Shown: one piece after another, positions 3,903 to 64,000 of the stretch
Layout of the letters: each line of letters opens with the position of its first letter
Numbering within the stretch: the first letter of the stretch is position 1
NCBI GenBank assembly: GCA_947501325.1
Contig: CANMVC010000002.1
Span: 682,001 to 746,000 of the forward strand
DNA: 64,000 bases
Direction of reading: 5' to 3'
Source: an uncultured Sphingomonadaceae bacterium
GTDB lineage: Bacteria; Pseudomonadota; Alphaproteobacteria; Sphingomonadales; Sphingomonadaceae
Program-made: the position numbers and the translations under genes
The notes under the pieces: model-generated
Seen by the model: the letters and a program-made list of their open reading frames with translations, nothing else
Told to the model about the DNA's origin: nothing
Databases searched by the model: none

Positions 3903-6900
3903 CTAAAATTTCGCACGGATACCCATCGTGATGGTGCGACCGCCGTTAAATTGAAACGTGTCGGGGAAATTGAACGACGTATCTCCATCACCAAATTGCG
4001 AGCTGGTCGTTTGTCGTATGTCCGGCTTTTTGGAACCACGCAGTAAGTCGTCGCCTTCCAAAAACAGAGTGAACAGTCCCCCCGCTTTTTCAAAGCTATA
4101 GGAAAAACGCGCGTCGAGCGTGTCATAACCCGGAATAACCGTATTGATGTTAAATTCGTCGAAAGTTTCTACTGTCGCGGACTGGCTGGTGTAGATGACG
4201 CGCCCCTGGAAGCCATCCCGCTCATAATCGAGCGACAGGTTGTACACCCACCGCGCCTGATCACGTAACGGGCGATCAAGGCTGAGTTGAATGGTATTGC
4301 CATCATCGTCACGGGCAGAAACCAATGTCGGAAAATCGCCGTTAGTATAGGTCACGTTGGCGAGAACCCCGAAGTCACTTAGAAAACCGGGTAAGAAGTT
4401 CAGCCGCCGGATAAGCTCGCCCTCGATGCCCCAAATCGTGCCACCTTCACCGTTTTCAGGCCGATTGACGAGGAATACCGTGCCGGGGTCAAGGTCAAGG
4501 AGATCAGGCCGGGTCGCGGCGAGCGGCTGGTACCGATCCAAAAATCTCTGACGCACATCTGTGTTATCAACCGCCGTGAAGGACACATTAGTAAAATTGT
4601 TGCTGATCTTTTTATAGAAGAAGCCTGCGCGAACCAGGCCAGGGGAGTCATCGAAATAATAAGCAATATCCAGGTCGAAATTGTCGGTCGTCGACGGCTT
4701 CAGACTGGGATTGGCTTCCAATATCGTCACACGCGCAAATTGGGGGCGAAGGTCAACGCTGAAAGTGGTGGATCGGTTTAGCAACCGGAAATCCGGATTG
4801 ATAGTGGAACGGAAATATCCGAGGCGTGCGGTGAAATTTTCAATCGGGCGATAGGTCAGCAGAAAGCTGGGCGTCCATGTATCCACCGAACCAGAAGTGC
4901 TGTCGAAACTGACCAGGCCTGCTTCCACAAATGTTTCACGGGGCTCGCTGCGCCTGCCTGGCTCGTTCAAAACGAAACTCTGCGAAGTAATGGTTACGCC
5001 GGACCGCTTCTCCCTCTCATAGCGAACGCCAGCAATAAGATCGAAATCACCAACGGTAAGCTTTGATTCCAGATAGCCGGAAAATCTTTCTTCAATGGTT
5101 TTGGTAGGTATTAGGGCAGCGCCCGTTACAAGCGGATCCAGCGCCGCGAAGTCCAAGAAAGTGAACCTTGCCTCATTGAAATCTGTAGCAGGGTCATCGG
5201 TTATGAAATCTGGCAGTTGATCAACAATATTGCTTGTATTTGAGGGGCTTAGAAACGGAATGGAAAATTCTGATACACCTAATTTCGCAAAACCGTCCTG
5301 GTCAAATGTGCCGTTATTGAACAATGTTACAGGTGTGGGAAGGCTCGCAATCCTTGTGTATCGCTGACTTGCGATCGTCCGAGGATTGGACGGATTGTCA
5401 TTGGTAGTACGAGTGTTGCGTTGGTATTTGCCGCCCAGTTCCATATATTCAAGAAAATCCAGAGGCGTGTTATATCGCGCCTGAAACTCCCCAGTATAAG
5501 TTTCAGTCACATTCTCGATCGGGTTAATGACAGCGTTGAAAAAATTGTAATTAGAAGGATCGTTTACAAAATCAATTCCGGCCTGCGTTAGCGATGGGAT
5601 GATTAATCCGTTACCAACCGTAACGAACCCGCCATTGACTACCCGCGGAGTTGCAGCGGCGTCATCATCAGGATTGATCACAATAGTTTCGGGATCAATA
5701 AGATCCGTCAGATTTGTTGCCACAGCGTTGAAATTAACGAAACTATTATCCCCCTTGAACTCGGACCGTCCATAACCGGCCTTATATTCAAATTCCCAAC
5801 GCCCGACATCCGTGTCGCCCCGAAAACTGATACTATCGCTCGTGCGCTGTTCATCCGTCGATGTAAGTATGAGGCGCGGATTCAACGACCTTAACGTCAC
5901 GCGCCGACGCACTTCATTGTCCAGCTCCGGAATGGGCATATCGGTAGAAAAAGACGAATATCCAATAGTAGAGGTAGATCTACTGCTAACTATATCCGAC
6001 TCATTGCGCTGAAAGTCCAAACGGAAGCGGGTATGATCCGCGACATCCCATGCGAGGTTCACCGAACCCACTATGGCCTCTTCCGCGCGATCGGTACGGG
6101 CATATTGCGCGCTCGTAATAAGCCGTTGTTGATCGAGTTCCGGATCAAACGGAAATTCAAGACTTGCCGGCGTGTTAAAAAGAGAAGTCGCACCGACGGG
6201 AAAAACCGAAGGAATAGCATCGACCACCGATGCCGTATAATTCAACCGATCCGTTTTCCGATATTGCAGCGACGCCGCGATCCCGAAATTGTCGGTCAAC
6301 TTCTTTGCGACCGTTCCATTGATCTGATACTCCTCACCAAAGGCCCGGTCGAAATTGGTTTCGCCCTCGACAGAAAGATTGAGCGAGAAATCCCCGTAAT
6401 CGAGCCCCGACTTGGTCTCAATCTCGACCAGTCCACCAGAACCCGTCGCCTCATGGCTGGGCAACAAGGATTTGTGGATGGTAATTTCAGAAATATTGTC
6501 CGTCAGAAATCCGCTGAGATCGACAGTGCGTTCAAACCCTGTGCCCTGCACTTCCAGACCGTTCAATTGCACATTAATCGCCTCGGAACTAAATCCCCGC
6601 ACCGTGATGCGCGATCCTTCCCCGGTTTCATCATCCCGCCCGAACGCGACGCCTGGCACGCGGCGCAGCGCTTCCGAAACTGTTTCGGCAGGAAATCCGC
6701 CAAGCAAATCCGAAGACACAACCGTCGCATTGTTATCCGCATTTTTCTGCTTGTTCAGCGCTTGCTGGATAGAACTGCGATAGCCGAAGACCACAATATC
6801 CTGATTGGCAGCACCGAGCTCGATATTCGCTTGCTGACGTGATCCAGCGGATACCGAAACTATAGCGGTCTTCACCTGCTCGCCCAAATATTCCACGCGA

Positions 6901-57785: not shown

Positions 57786-58787
57786 ATGAACAAAGCCGTG
57801 AAATTCTCGATACTTGACCTGTCGCCGGTACCGCAGGGCGCGGACGTCAAAACCGCATTGGACCGCTCGCTCGCGCTGGCGCAACATGGCGAATCCCTTG
57901 GCTTTGAACGGTTCTGGATGGCCGAGCATCATGGCATGGCCGGAATTGCCAGCGCCGCAACATCGGTTGCGCTGGCTCATGTCGGGTCGGGCACAAAAAC
58001 CATCCGCATCGGTGCCGGCGGGATCATGCTGCCCAATCATGCGCCGATGGTGATTGCCGAGCAATTCGGAACGCTGGAAGCGCTCTTTCCCGGCCGGATT
58101 GATCTTGGCCTTGGCCGTGCGCCGGGTTCCGACCAGCGGGTAGCGCAGGCCATGCGGCGCAACCTGAACACCGACCCCAACCAGTTTCCGCGCGATGTTC
58201 TGGAGTTACAGGCCTTGTTGGAAGGCGACGAGGCGCTTGGCATTCAGGCTACACCCGGTGCCGGTTCGAAAATCCCGCTATATATATTGGGTAGCAGCCT
58301 ATTCGGCGCGCAGCTCGCCGCCGCCCTCGGCCTGCCCTATGCCTTTGCCTCGCATTTCGCGCCGCAAGCCCTTGATGAAGCGCTGGCCATTTACCGCCGC
58401 GACTTCAAACCGTCGGCGCAATTGTCGGAACCATATGCCATGTGCGGTTTCAACATATTTGCTGCTGACACGGATGATGAAGCCGAACATCTCGCCACCT
58501 CGATGATGCAGAGCTTTGTCGCCCTGCGTACCGGCAATCCCGGCAAATTACCGCCACCGGTGGAGGGCTATCGTGAAAGCCTGCCGCCGCAAGCGCAATC
58601 CATGCTTGCCCAGATCATGCAGGGCAGCGCCGTAGGGGCGCCCGATGCCGTGCTGAGCAGCGTCCGCGCCTTTCTCGACCGCACGCAGGCGAATGAGCTA
58701 ATCGTCTGCGGCTCGATCTTCGATCAAGCCGCGCGCGAAAAATCCTATGGTCTGGCTGCCGAAGTCCGCGACCTGATTGCGGCATAG
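57786..58787 (+). CDS. Luciferase-like (LLM-class) flavin-dependent oxidoreductase
   Basis: A 333-residue flavin-using monooxygenase-type TIM barrel. RFWMAEHHGMAGIASAATSVALAHVG, RIGAGGIMLPNHAPMVIAEQFGTLEALFPGRIDLGLGRAPG are the characteristic family segments. These enzymes usually use reduced FMN, or F420 in other groups, on varied substrates. AGAGG is close upstream. Last gene of the operon; a REP-like palindrome follows. Confidence 0.92.
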   Translation: MNKAVKFSILDLSPVPQGADVKTALDRSLALAQHGESLGFERFWMAEHHGMAGIASAATSVALAHVGSGTKTIRIGAGGIMLPNHAPMVIAEQFGTLEALFPGRIDLGLGRAPGSDQRVAQAMRRNLNTDPNQFPRDVLELQALLEGDEALGIQATPGAGSKIPLYILGSSLFGAQLAAALGLPYAFASHFAPQALDEALAIYRRDFKPSAQLSEPYAMCGFNIFAADTDDEAEHLATSMMQSFVALRTGNPGKLPPPVEGYRESLPPQAQSMLAQIMQGSAVGAPDAVLSSVRAFLDRTQANELIVCGSIFDQAAREKSYGLAAEVRDLIAA

Positions 58788-58801
58788 GGCCGTTTCCAAT
58801 G

Positions 58802-58872
58802 CCGTTCGTCCTGAGCCTGTCGAAGGACATCTCAAGACCATAGATGCACTTCGACAGGCTCAGTGCGAACGG
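58802..58872. repeat. REP-like palindromic element
   Basis: Two 29-base arms (58802-58830 and 58844-58872) are reverse complements at 25 of 29 positions with a 13-base loop. The core CTGAGCCTGTCGAAG is the widespread dispersed palindrome of sphingomonads and some other proteobacteria. It lies between convergent genes and may also end transcripts. Confidence 0.8.
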
Positions 58873-58892
58873 GTATCTGATAAGGGCTGGAC

Positions 58893-60077
58893 CTAGAAAG
58901 CCGAGAAAGGCTTGTCCTTGTCGACCCGCACATCCTGCGGTAGGCCCAGCACGCGTTCCGCGATAATGTTTTTCAATATCTCGTCGGTACCACCGGCGAT
59001 CCGAAGGCCCGGCGCCCACATGAAGCTTTCCTGAAAAATCGCATCCGCTGGGGCATGATCCTTGTCGGAAATAATCCCATAATGGTCCTGCATCTCGATC
59101 GCGCTGTTGCAGATATCCTGCAAATGGTTTGCGGTGATCACCTTGCCGATGGAGTTTTCCGGCCCCGGAGTTTCGCCTTTGGACAAGGCTGTCTGGGTGC
59201 GGAATTTGGTCAGCTTGTAACCCTGCGCCGCGACATACCAGTCCGCCAGTTTCGCTCGGAACGCCTGATCGCTCATCGAACCGGATGACCGGGCATAGTC
59301 CATAATCTCGGCCCAGTCCGGTCCCGGCGAGCCGCCCACGGCAAGCCGCTCGTTCATCAGCGTGACCAAGGCCACTTTCCAGCCCATGCCCGGTTCGCCA
59401 AGCCGGTCGCTGTCGGGAATGCGGACGTCGGTGAAGTAAACCTCGTTAAACTCACTGCCGCCCGATGCCTGATGGATCGGGCGCACATCGACGCCTTCCT
59501 GGTTCATGTCGACGATGAACATGGTCAGGCCCTTATGCTTGGGCACATCCGGGTCTGTGCGCACCAGCAGGATGCCATAGTCGGAATAATGCGCACCGGA
59601 GGTCCAGACCTTCTGGCCATTAATCACCCAGTCATCGCCATCCTTGACCGCTTTGGTTTTCAGGCCAGCAACATCAGACCCGGCGGCCGGTTCAGAGAAT
59701 AGCTGGCACCAGATTTCTTCACCGAACAGCGCCTTTTGGACATAGCGCTTCTTATGTTCATCAGAACCAAAAGCGATAACCGTCGGCACGCACATGCCCA
59801 GACCAATGGCAAACGGCCCGGTTGGCGCATCAAATTTGGATTCCTCCTGATTCCAGATGACCTGCTGCATCGGCGATCCACCGCGGCCGCCAATTTCCTT
59901 GGGCCAGGTGATTTGCGCAAACCGGTTTTCCGCTTTGATCTTCTGCCAATCCTTGGCGCGCTGCAGATAATTGCCTGACCGGCTCGCTGCTCCCTTTTTG
60001 GGTTGCAGATGCTGGCTTAAAAAGGCGTTGGCTTCTGCTCTGAAAGCCGCTTCTTCGGTTGAGTCTGTAAAATCCAT
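58893..60077 (-). CDS. Acyl-CoA dehydrogenase (subunit of a paired enzyme)
   Basis: A 394-residue acyl-CoA dehydrogenase with LFSEPAAGSDVAGLKTKA, NGQKVWTSGAHYSDYGILLVRT and the C-terminal RIAGGTDEILKNIIAERVLGLP, which supplies part of the FAD/substrate site. It lies 24 bases after a second, divergent-in-sequence acyl-CoA dehydrogenase, suggesting a heteromeric enzyme as for steroid and cholesterol side-chain dehydrogenases. GAGG lies about nine bases before the ATG. Substrate unknown. Confidence 0.92.
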   Translation of the reverse strand: MDFTDSTEEAAFRAEANAFLSQHLQPKKGAASRSGNYLQRAKDWQKIKAENRFAQITWPKEIGGRGGSPMQQVIWNQEESKFDAPTGPFAIGLGMCVPTVIAFGSDEHKKRYVQKALFGEEIWCQLFSEPAAGSDVAGLKTKAVKDGDDWVINGQKVWTSGAHYSDYGILLVRTDPDVPKHKGLTMFIVDMNQEGVDVRPIHQASGGSEFNEVYFTDVRIPDSDRLGEPGMGWKVALVTLMNERLAVGGSPGPDWAEIMDYARSSGSMSDQAFRAKLADWYVAAQGYKLTKFRTQTALSKGETPGPENSIGKVITANHLQDICNSAIEMQDHYGIISDKDHAPADAIFQESFMWAPGLRIAGGTDEILKNIIAERVLGLPQDVRVDKDKPFSAF

Positions 60078-61415: not shown

Positions 61416-61955
61416 ATGAAAATAGACAAACTCATTGACGACGTGATCGCTATAGAAGGCGAATATTCGAACCATCCCGCAGATCGCGGCGGCCCCACCC
61501 GCTGGGGCGTCACCGAAGCTGTTGCGCGCCGTAACGGCTATATCGGCGAAATGCGGCATTTTCCTTATGACCAAGCGGTTGCCATATATAAGCGCAACTA
61601 TTGGGTAAGGCCGGGCTTTGACAAAGTCAGTAGCCATGCTCCCAGATTGGCCAAAGAGCTGTTCGATACCGGCATTAATATGGGCCCAGCTGCGGCAGCC
61701 GGATTTTTGCAACGCGCGCTTAATGCACTGAATCGCAATGCGCGGGATTATGCTGACATAAAAATCGACCGTCAAATTGGACCACAGACTATCGGCGCGC
61801 TGGAACAATTCATGCGAAAACGCGGAGCCAGCGGCGAGACTGTTCTGCTGAAGGCCGTCGAAGCCCTCCAGGGTGAACGCTATATCAAATTGGCAGAGCA
61901 GCGTCCGGCCAATGAAGCCTTTCTATATGGCTGGCTGGCCAATCGTATCGGCTGA
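61416..61955 (+). CDS. GH108-type endolysin (N-acetylmuramidase) with peptidoglycan-binding tail
   Basis: A 179-residue phage-like lysozyme: IAIEGEYSNHPADRGGPTRWG carries the catalytic-type Glu (EGGY/EGEY motif), followed by ELFDTGINMGPAAAAGFLQRALN and IDRQIGPQTIGAL, the peptidoglycan-binding domain. Family members serve phages and gene transfer agents in cell lysis, or act as secretion activators. No signal peptide, so export would need a holin; one is encoded 176 bases downstream. The start follows AGGA immediately, so translation initiation may be weak. Confidence 0.88.
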   Translation: MKIDKLIDDVIAIEGEYSNHPADRGGPTRWGVTEAVARRNGYIGEMRHFPYDQAVAIYKRNYWVRPGFDKVSSHAPRLAKELFDTGINMGPAAAAGFLQRALNALNRNARDYADIKIDRQIGPQTIGALEQFMRKRGASGETVLLKAVEALQGERYIKLAEQRPANEAFLYGWLANRIG

Positions 61956-61979: not shown

Positions 61980-62090
61980 GAACTCTGTGCACTTTGTCAA
62001 CTTCGTAGTGTTGCACAATCCGGCATGCGCTGACCCAAATCAGAAATGCTGAGAATACAGGCTTTATTGGTGAGAACTGTGTGAACTTTG
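61980..62090 (+). repeat. 17-base direct repeat between endolysin and holin genes
   Basis: GAACTCTGTGCACTTTG (61980-61996) and GAACTGTGTGAACTTTG (62074-62090) match at 15 of 17 bases, 94 bases apart, the second ending about 41 bases before the holin ATG. They could be regulator sites for the holin gene; function unknown. Confidence 0.45.
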
Positions 62091-62131
62091 GCCTCTCCTT
62101 CCCACTCCCAATTAATAAGGAACCCAGATCC

Positions 62132-62545
62132 ATGTCTCTGCTTTCCACCCTCATCGAACCCATCTCCAAAATAATCGACAAGGTCATCCCCGACAAAGAA
62201 GCCCGCGACCGCGCCAAGCTGGAACTGCTCAAACTGGAGGGCAGTCAGGAAATGGAACAGGTCCGCGTCCAGATATCTGCCATCTTGGCAGAAGCGCAAT
62301 CCACCGACCCCTGGACCAGCCGCGCTCGCCCGAGTTTTTTATACGTCATGTATATCTTGCTGCTCTGGTCTCTACCCATGGGTTTGATCGCCGCGATCAG
62401 ACCAGAGGCAGCCCAGGACATTGCCAGCGGGATGAACGCTTATCTCGCCGGGATTCCCGAACCCCTATATGCCTTATTTGGGACAGGATATCTTGGCTAT
62501 ACTGTGGCAAGACAATGGGGGAAAATACGCGGTGTCGAGAAATAG
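62132..62545 (+). CDS. GTA-type holin (3TM family)
   Basis: A 137-residue protein: an amphipathic N-terminal region (IIDKVIPDKEARDRAKLELLKLEG) with a membrane segment near residues 68-90 (RARPSFLYVMYILLLWSLP) and further hydrophobic stretches to residue ~130 (YALFGTGYLGYTVARQWGK). This resembles the holin family first defined from gene transfer agents (GTA_holin_3TM). With the upstream endolysin it would form a lysis cassette. No capsid, tail or terminase genes lie in the window. ATG at 62132 rather than 62081, from the homology start and AAGGA upstream. Confidence 0.85.
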   Translation: MSLLSTLIEPISKIIDKVIPDKEARDRAKLELLKLEGSQEMEQVRVQISAILAEAQSTDPWTSRARPSFLYVMYILLLWSLPMGLIAAIRPEAAQDIASGMNAYLAGIPEPLYALFGTGYLGYTVARQWGKIRGVEK

Positions 62546-62631: not shown

Positions 62632-62715
62632 AAGACGACGCACAAATAGACTTGCCATGCCTACATCTTTGCAGATAGAGGGGAAAGTCTAGTTCATTCC
62701 AAAGGGGATATTTAA

Positions 62716-63012
62716 ATGTCTAACGAAACAAGTTTCCGCAAAATGCTGGCAGTAGCCGGTGGTCTTGCTCTTGCAGTACCTGCTCTTTCAGCATGTGCCG
62801 AGCAAGCTGAAGACGCTGCTGCAACAGCAGAATGTGCTGCATGTGCAGCTGAATGCGCTGCTGAGTGTGCCGCATGTGCTGCTGAATGTGCTGCTGACGC
62901 GACCGGCGATGCCGCTGCTTGTGCTGCTGGCTGTGCTGCATGCGCTGCTGAGTGTGCTGCTGAAGCTGCTGGCGATGCAGCTTGTGCTGCTGCAGACGCA
63001 GTTACCGAGTAA
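62716..63012 (+). CDS. Cys/Ala/Glu-rich repeat lipoprotein, putative metal binder
   Basis: A 98-residue protein of unknown family. A signal peptide ends in lipobox LSAC (C27); Ala at +2 favours the outer membrane. The mature part is nearly all Ala, Cys, Glu and Asp. Cysteines at 40, 43, 47, 51, 54, 58 and again 69, 73, 76, 80, then 90, are spaced 3 or 4 apart, the pattern that puts them on one face of an alpha-helix. Two TGD/AGDA turns (63-65, 86-87) would separate helices. Copper-storage proteins use Cys-lined helices in this way, but there is no sequence homology to them that I can see. AAGGGG lies about eight bases before the ATG. Real gene judged likely from ribosome-binding site, signal and lipobox. 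Confidence 0.8.
   Translation: MSNETSFRKMLAVAGGLALAVPALSACAEQAEDAAATAECAACAAECAAECAACAAECAADATGDAAACAAGCAACAAECAAEAAGDAACAAADAVTE
62818..62985 (+). repeat. Codon-repeat tract inside the Cys-rich lipoprotein gene
   Basis: Imperfect tandem repeats of GCTGCTGAATGTGCT-like units, encoding Ala-Ala-Glu-Cys-Ala. Such tracts can grow or shrink by replication slippage, so copy number may vary between strains. Confidence 0.7.
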
Positions 63013-63029: not shown

Positions 63030-63656
63030 TTGGAAAATGCATTAGAAAGGCTGTTTGAGCTTACGGGCCAGATAGCTAAAGAGGGCGTCTCGCTAGTACC
63101 CAGAGTGGTACCGGCAGACGCCCCTTTCGTTCAGTACCAACATTATCCGAAGGGCGACTGTGTTGCACCCGGCAACAAGTCTCGCTGGTTTTACCATGCG
63201 CACAAACCCGAAGAACGGGAAGAAGGCGAACATGGCCATTTCCACATGTTCCTGCCGCTCGATATGTTCAAAGGCGTAGACGCGCTGTACGAACCACCGA
63301 AAAAATTACCCAATGGCAAACCAACCCAAGGCGTTGTCCATTTTGGTGCTTTGAGCTTTGATCTCGATGGCATGCCGCTTAGCTGGTTCACGACCAACTA
63401 TTGGGTCACTTACGAATATTTCATGCCTGCTGATGCCATAGCATCACGGCTAAAGCTATTTTCGATGAAAAACGCGCCGGGTGATCCGCTGGTCAACGAC
63501 TGGCTTACCGCCGCTGTAACGGTTTTTAACGAGCCAATTATTGACATGCTCAACGAACGGGACAAGCTGTTAGCCGAAAAGAAGGCGGAGCTTGGCGACG
63601 CTGTCTTCGAGAATAAATCGGTCGAGATCATGTCACGCCGGGCCTTCGACCTTTAA
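63030..63656 (+). CDS. Protein of unknown family with a clustered His/Glu motif
   Basis: A 208-residue cytoplasmic-looking protein (no signal peptide or membrane segment). It contains RWFYHAHKPEEREEGEHGHFHMFLP (about residues 51-75), with five histidines and several glutamates close together, a likely metal site, then FGALSFDLDGMPLSWFTTNYWVTYEYF. I do not recognise the family with confidence. The start seems to be TTG, as no ATG or GTG fits and a stop lies 15 bases upstream. It begins 17 bases after the Cys-rich lipoprotein gene and is probably co-transcribed. Confidence 0.8.
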   Translation: MENALERLFELTGQIAKEGVSLVPRVVPADAPFVQYQHYPKGDCVAPGNKSRWFYHAHKPEEREEGEHGHFHMFLPLDMFKGVDALYEPPKKLPNGKPTQGVVHFGALSFDLDGMPLSWFTTNYWVTYEYFMPADAIASRLKLFSMKNAPGDPLVNDWLTAAVTVFNEPIIDMLNERDKLLAEKKAELGDAVFENKSVEIMSRRAFDL

Positions 63657-63719: not shown

Positions 63720-64000
63720 CTATCGTTCAACAACGTCCTTTTTCATCGGAGCAAGCTTCGCCAGAAACCGATTTTGCAGCCGGAAGGGGACCTTTTCTTC
63801 TTCCATAGCTACCTGTAAATTCTCAACCAGCGCGTTCATATCGGCCATCTGAATGCCCAGATTTTTATGCGCAGCGCGCATGTCGCGGCCAGAATAATCG
63901 CAACCGGCATTGAGTATGTAACAAAATTGTTCGAAAAGCGTTCGGCGCAGACGCATCATGTCCTGACCTTTGAAAATATCACCGATCCTCGGATCTTCAA
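63720..64000 (-). CDS. Group 1 truncated haemoglobin, C-terminal part (5' end outside window)
   Basis: About 92 C-terminal residues in a frame running off the right edge. DPRIGDIFKGQDMMRLRRTLFEQFCYI followed by CDYSGRDMRAAHKNLGI (proximal His in AAHKN) and MADMNALVENLQVAMEEEKVP matches the last helices of group 1 truncated globins. These bind O2 or NO. The ATG at 63959 is internal to the domain and not the true start. Confidence 0.88.
   Translation of the reverse strand, partial: EDPRIGDIFKGQDMMRLRRTLFEQFCYILNAGCDYSGRDMRAAHKNLGIQMADMNALVENLQVAMEEEKVPFRLQNRFLAKLAPMKKDVVER

Follow-up and report, generated by a model that had tools for sequence, protein, structure and literature searches.

In this study, we propose that a short cysteine-repeat lipoprotein gene and the DUF6969 gene directly behind it, both located in a window of 64,000 nucleotides (the whole stretch analysed) from an uncultured Sphingomonadaceae bacterium, contribute one half each to an apparently undescribed two-gene system. 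The association between DUF6969 and cysteine-repeat proteins is wide and reciprocal, and repeat cysteines are missing in the two congeners that have no DUF6969; DUF6969 and the cysteines of its companions thus very probably function together. This assigns DUF6969, a family of unknown function, a specific partner and a role that can be tested, and it unites seemingly unrelated Cys-repeat proteins with CAAE, GCCAAEG, NPCNPC, CGACGA or CSPC motifs in one system.

The lipoprotein gene (62716..63012, + strand) runs from ATG to TAA and encodes 98 amino acids. Read by eye, residues 1-26 (62716..62793, +) constitute a lipoprotein signal peptide with the lipobox LSAC at residues 24-27 (62785-62796, +) and a Cys at +1 that is predicted to be lipidated, while residues 39-91 (62830..62988, +) form a Cys/Ala/acid repeat region holding 11 cysteines besides the lipidated one. 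The frame is open in the homologues of the genus (Parasphingorhabdus/Sphingorhabdus, with relatives named Parasphingorhabdus, Sphingorhabdus or uncultured Sphingomonadaceae). Its signal peptide is near-constant, LSAC being unchanged in all 16 homologues that were aligned, and the repeat region is reshuffled. An alignment of the upstream stretches of 27 relatives delimits a conserved block (62644..62715, +) that includes a Shine-Dalgarno sequence AAAGGGG (62701-62707, +), and TTGCCA (62652-62657) together with GATAGA (62674-62679, both +) may represent a promoter. The conserved frame, lipobox signal and Shine-Dalgarno sequence bear out the open frame proposed in the first-pass annotation and support its lipid anchor as a predicted feature; judged by this conservation, the ORF is real. 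Other open frames in the ORF list overlap the same stretch and appear to result merely from the repeats. The coordinates given earlier are correct for the ORF, but stop short of the key downstream DUF6969 gene.

Of the 32 genomes available for the genus, 31 gave a lipoprotein match, among them all 24 of good quality. The match in G015 (E 0.0099, 32% identity, within a 198-aa frame) is probably spurious, which leaves 30 convincing genomes, and the lipoprotein was not found in G016. Both of these genomes are incomplete (80 and 67%, respectively), have no DUF6969 match and stand outside the count of 30 loci used below. In searches of Pfam, NCBIfam and PDB sequences the lipoprotein of the window gave no match at E up to 1.

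The DUF6969 gene (63030..63656, +) has a TTG start, lies 17 nt past the stop codon of the lipoprotein gene and encodes 208 amino acids that match PF22308 with an E-value of 3.7e-58 and 196.9 bits against a Pfam cut-off of 27. Ten residues are invariant in 54 diverse sequences of the family (P40, H56, H58, G69, H70, H72, H104, F120, N123 and R177), and E67 and H68 are kept in 90% or more of them; the invariant residues resemble a metal site. Since no signal peptide is visible by eye, the protein should be cytosolic. An AlphaFold2 model based on an alignment of 16 close homologues has a mean pLDDT of 68; with this low-confidence model Foldseek retrieved nothing from the PDB at E up to 0.001 and VIA-align reached a best Z of 2.7. 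Comparison of a profile with PDB sequences yielded a best E of 0.39, and we do not take these results as a sign of a new fold. Under the family name no paper was found, literature searches for NPCNPC and for NPCAAK, NPCAAN, CNPCNPC and CAACAAEC repeats retrieved unrelated matches only, and none was found that joins cytochrome P460 with cysteine-rich low-complexity proteins.

DUF6969 occurs in 90 of the 385 genomes of an alphaproteobacterial class sample, with matches spanning 65 genera, in 20 of 398 genomes of a phylum sample and in 31 of 249 Sphingomonadaceae genomes. The exported-looking proteins encoded upstream of it differ widely in their Cys repeats, e.g., NPCNPC and CGACGA elsewhere in Pseudomonadota, their export signals being judged from a hydrophobic stretch or by eye. 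We defined a Cys-repeat ORF as one in which a hydrophobic stretch precedes a 40-residue window with at least five cysteines and few residue types; it could lie at any place in the locus and on either strand. Such an ORF is present in 46 of 96 DUF6969 loci versus none of 20 control stretches taken at a distance of 100 kb in DUF6969-bearing genomes of that set (Fisher 1.9e-5, a value that is too small given shared ancestry); the 50 loci that have none by this definition include some short ones. Within Sphingomonadaceae, where 30 of 32 DUF6969 matches were read as loci, 28 of the 30 show, on the same strand and at most 420 nt upstream of DUF6969, an exported-looking ORF with five or more cysteines, the exceptions being companions with three cysteines (L257) and one (L272). 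The reciprocal search, with a degenerate DNA pattern for NPCAAKNPC across the class sample, identified 28 genomes. DUF6969 is present in 27 of them where 6.5 are expected (p 7e-18, again too small because of shared ancestry), and in 24 of these 27 the repeat lies at most 10 kb from DUF6969; the one exception without DUF6969 is G327. In the case of L272 (genome G881), DUF6969 stands behind an exported-looking Lys/Arg/Ala-rich protein whose start resembles that of the companion in L266, which ends in NPCAANPCAA repeats; in L272 the repeat may have been lost recently.

The congeners of the window's genome provide what amounts to a natural knock-out. DUF6969 adjoins the lipoprotein gene in 28 of the 30 loci of the genus, and those 28 lipoproteins carry between 2 and 16 repeat cysteines, four of them only two despite the presence of DUF6969. 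In the remaining two genomes, G014 (97% complete) and G017 (87%), the lipoprotein gene lies beside the same holin gene, and no DUF6969 match was obtained at the locus or elsewhere in the genome. Their lipoproteins retain the lipobox Cys alone, the repeat consisting of Ala, Asp, Glu, Thr and few other residues. A split of 28 to 2 would coincide by chance once in 435 cases (30 choose 2) if the loci were independent, which they are not. That the repeat cysteines are missing exactly where DUF6969 is missing is the strongest hint that they may be of use only with DUF6969.

From the conserved frame and signal, the gene order, the reciprocal association and the absence of repeat cysteines in the two congeners without DUF6969, we infer how DUF6969 would act on the chain, by which chemistry, in which order of events and for which metal. 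The lipoprotein ORF and the downstream DUF6969 gene would make up a cassette of two genes. The first would encode an exported lipoprotein; its mature part is a rapidly changing Cys/Ala/acid repeat, the thiols of which would line one helical face. DUF6969 would stay in the cytosol and act on the cysteines of the chain ahead of Sec export, either through a metal-dependent modification, comparable to that of MNIO enzymes on bufferins, or by loading or protecting the cysteines. Once lipidated, the chain would be anchored in the envelope, and its thiols, or ligands derived from them, would form an array for binding a soft metal outside the cytoplasm, with Cu(I) as a first guess. The step in which DUF6969 acts on the cysteines of its companion before export is probable, and metal binding by the lipoprotein is plausible, the exported repeat being perhaps a metal-binding coat. 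The explanation as a whole, from an action on thiols before export to a soft-metal ligand array, stands in our estimate at even chances. Modification of the cysteines by DUF6969 would be a new way, in addition to that of the MNIO enzymes, of producing exported metal ligands; loading or protection of the thiols would bear on the safe delivery of dense thiol arrays into the envelope. A more specific version is tentative, and we would sooner expect it to fail than to hold: DUF6969 could be an MNIO-independent, metal-dependent maturase that iteratively modifies the cysteines of low-complexity repeat proteins prior to Sec export. If so, a new class of RiPP-like metallophores, exported and either membrane-anchored or cytochrome-fused, would extend over Pseudomonadota, and the lipoprotein described here would be its helical-stripe version.

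The closest parallel to this cassette is found in bufferins and oxazolins, which according to passages of PMC12452194 are copper-binding, have Sec signals and undergo modification at Cys. Similar to these Cys-rich RiPPs, which are served by MNIO and DUF2063, the cassette combines a Cys-rich precursor bearing a Sec-type signal with an adjacent gene for a non-exported partner, and an envelope location is presumed. In one locus (L235) the DUF6969 pair even directly follows a bufferin operon of the order DUF2282-MNIO-DUF2063-DoxX. The partner here is DUF6969, however, and not MNIO plus DUF2063. Moreover, the lipoprotein has no DUF2282 as in Buf1, the genome's bufferin-like cluster lies on another contig, and its only MNIO match is on contig C6, the window being on C2. 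With no MNIO beside the lipoprotein and no DUF2282, the cassette is not a bufferin system; by analogy its topology appears to work like one without making it a member. A general role of DUF6969 as an MNIO partner was considered and rejected, as 5 of 17 DUF6969 genomes are without MNIO and only one of 93 loci has bufferin/MNIO genes in the vicinity of DUF6969.

The gene contexts hint both at metals, through the bufferin operon in L235 and the YHS genes described below, and at sulfur. FGE-like genes are found in 29 of 93 DUF6969 loci, P460-like genes in 25, cytochrome c genes in 24 and TRAP transporter genes in 14, each absent from the 20 control stretches; the queries were picked from the same DUF6969 loci, so that the controls are not an independent test. 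The FGE-like, cytochrome and TRAP transporter genes did not fit a single mechanism. An exported-looking FGE/SUMF1-like protein is encoded, e.g., at L158:526-1413. Near DUF6969, NPC repeats are also fused to heme-type domains (L151:7277-8314, L172:6970-8139, L186:432-1169 and L188:2223-3068), in L151 to a P460-like domain (E 0.00079, under the Pfam cut-off) and in L186 to a SoxA/TsdA-type cytochrome domain (E 5.8e-7). The latter fusion would suit a serious rival explanation, in which the exported thiols carry sulfane sulfur in the envelope, as persulfide or polysulfide, and DUF6969 serves to sulfurate or protect them. Genes for YeeE/YedE, for rhodanese or of the SoxA/TsdA type are present in 23 of 93 DUF6969 loci versus 0 of 20 controls, a comparison in which the query genes were chosen after the loci had been inspected, and in L240 the pair is flanked by ArsR-type, YeeE/YedE and rhodanese genes. 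Yet, none of the queried sulfur genes is seen by eye beside the pair in the window (L069), and the cassette in L235 follows a copper-bufferin operon. Serious as it is, we regard a sulfur-carrying role as unlikely.

YHS domains may bind copper. In locus L302 a related Cys repeat (CGACSAC) is fused to such a domain (5925-6557, - strand; E 8.7e-12). A second, paralogous exported-looking Cys-repeat protein of the window's own genome is encoded on contig C2 at about 89.7 kb (L300:5692-5979); it is flanked by two YHS matches, one above the Pfam cut-off and one 0.1 bit below it, and has no DUF6969 nearby.

Within the genus, the arrangement of the cysteines supports a stripe that is compatible with a helix. 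Translation confirms the 12 cysteines counted earlier in the 72 residues from C27 (positions 27, 40, 43, 47, 51, 54, 58, 69, 73, 76, 80 and 90), and both spacing series are exactly as claimed, whereas the statement that only Ala, Glu and Asp stand between them is mostly correct, Thr and Gly also occurring between the two series. The helical moment of the cysteines at 100 degrees is 0.83 compared to a mean of 0.25 for shuffles of the same composition, none of 2000 reaching 0.83. AlphaFold2 predicts two long helices nearly throughout, at a low mean pLDDT of 64. After collapsing identical sequences, 27 distinct lipoproteins were available, one of them (L239) from another genus; two more (L030 and L031) were missed by the automated pattern and read separately. 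The 206 successive Cys-Cys gaps of the 27 proteins measure mainly 4 (80), 7 (79) and 3 (37) residues, more rarely 11 (6), 10 (2), 8 (1) and 14 (1), so that 203 are 3, 4, 7, 11 or 14 and none is 5, 6 or 9; 6s and 8s would be expected if units of 3 and 4 residues were strung together at random. When the order of the gaps was shuffled in the 19 proteins with at least five repeat cysteines, the observed moment exceeded the shuffled mean in 18 (average 0.88 versus 0.78), an effect that is weak per protein (single-protein p values of 0.03 to 0.40, and 1.0 for L015) and may be explained in part by duplication of a 7-residue unit and by shared ancestry. Exact spacing differs between species and the helical register is kept. 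Taken together, the gap and moment statistics indicate that the stripe is conserved as a register and not as exact positions; a search for homologues with conserved Cys spacing, as suggested in the first-pass annotation, recovers the former within the genus but not the latter. Nor does the helical stripe hold as a general design, since many DUF6969 companions are rich in Pro or Gly (GCC, NPC and CGAC repeats).

The stripe would also fit the earlier reading of the lipoprotein as a plain metal sponge, in which Cu(I), Zn or Cd would be bound by thiols that carry no modification, DUF6969 being merely co-regulated. Dense cysteines that trade off against Asp/Glu in number (r = -0.96) agree with such a sponge as well. 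The lack of repeat cysteines in the congeners that lack DUF6969, and the company that DUF6969 keeps with unrelated Cys repeats, nevertheless call for more than co-regulation, and we consider this reading rather unlikely.

The likeness to four-helix copper-storage proteins that had been drawn with it finds no sequence support in Pfam, NCBIfam or PDB, and the lipoprotein was rejected as a copper-storage protein by sequence. As far as described in parts of PMC7558416, Csp1 has many cysteines in a helical stripe and is exported with a Tat signal. The lipoprotein shares the many cysteines and the helical stripe with Csp1 and Csp3 and the export with Csp1, but has a lipobox where Csp1 has the Tat signal in that account, and it differs from both in its 72 mature residues, its Cys positions that are not fixed and its DUF6969 partner. 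The bacterial metallothioneins SmtA and MymT, both mentioned in the same parts of PMC7558416, are small and Cys-rich. The lipoprotein is likewise small and Cys-rich; unlike them it has a lipobox signal peptide, an Ala/acid repeat and a partner gene, and no metallothionein family appeared among its Pfam and NCBIfam searches. SmtA and MymT are not known to carry export signals. That the protein is simply an envelope lipoprotein rich in Ala and acidic residues, encoded by low-complexity DNA that drifts through slippage of its repeats, with incidental cysteines, would account for the highly variable repeat region, for repeat Ala codons that are mostly GCT unlike those of six other window genes and for orthologues devoid of repeat Cys, but is very improbable considering that Cys presence tracks DUF6969 in the genus, that throughout Pseudomonadota DUF6969 goes along with Cys-repeat proteins of different kinds and that the helical register is kept.

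Directly upstream of the cassette, the window encodes a holin-type muramidase (Glyco_hydro_108, PG_binding_3; 61416-61955) and a GTA_holin_3TM protein (62081-62545), and both genes stay beside the cassette in most genus loci read. Behind it, a truncated-globin-like gene (PF01152, E 3.7e-05; 63720-63998, - strand) runs past the window end. Further upstream, the ORF at 58615-59019 (- strand) contains the words FALSLSK and FDRLRTNG, which we take to be characteristic of a palindromic repeat that is dispersed in sphingomonads.
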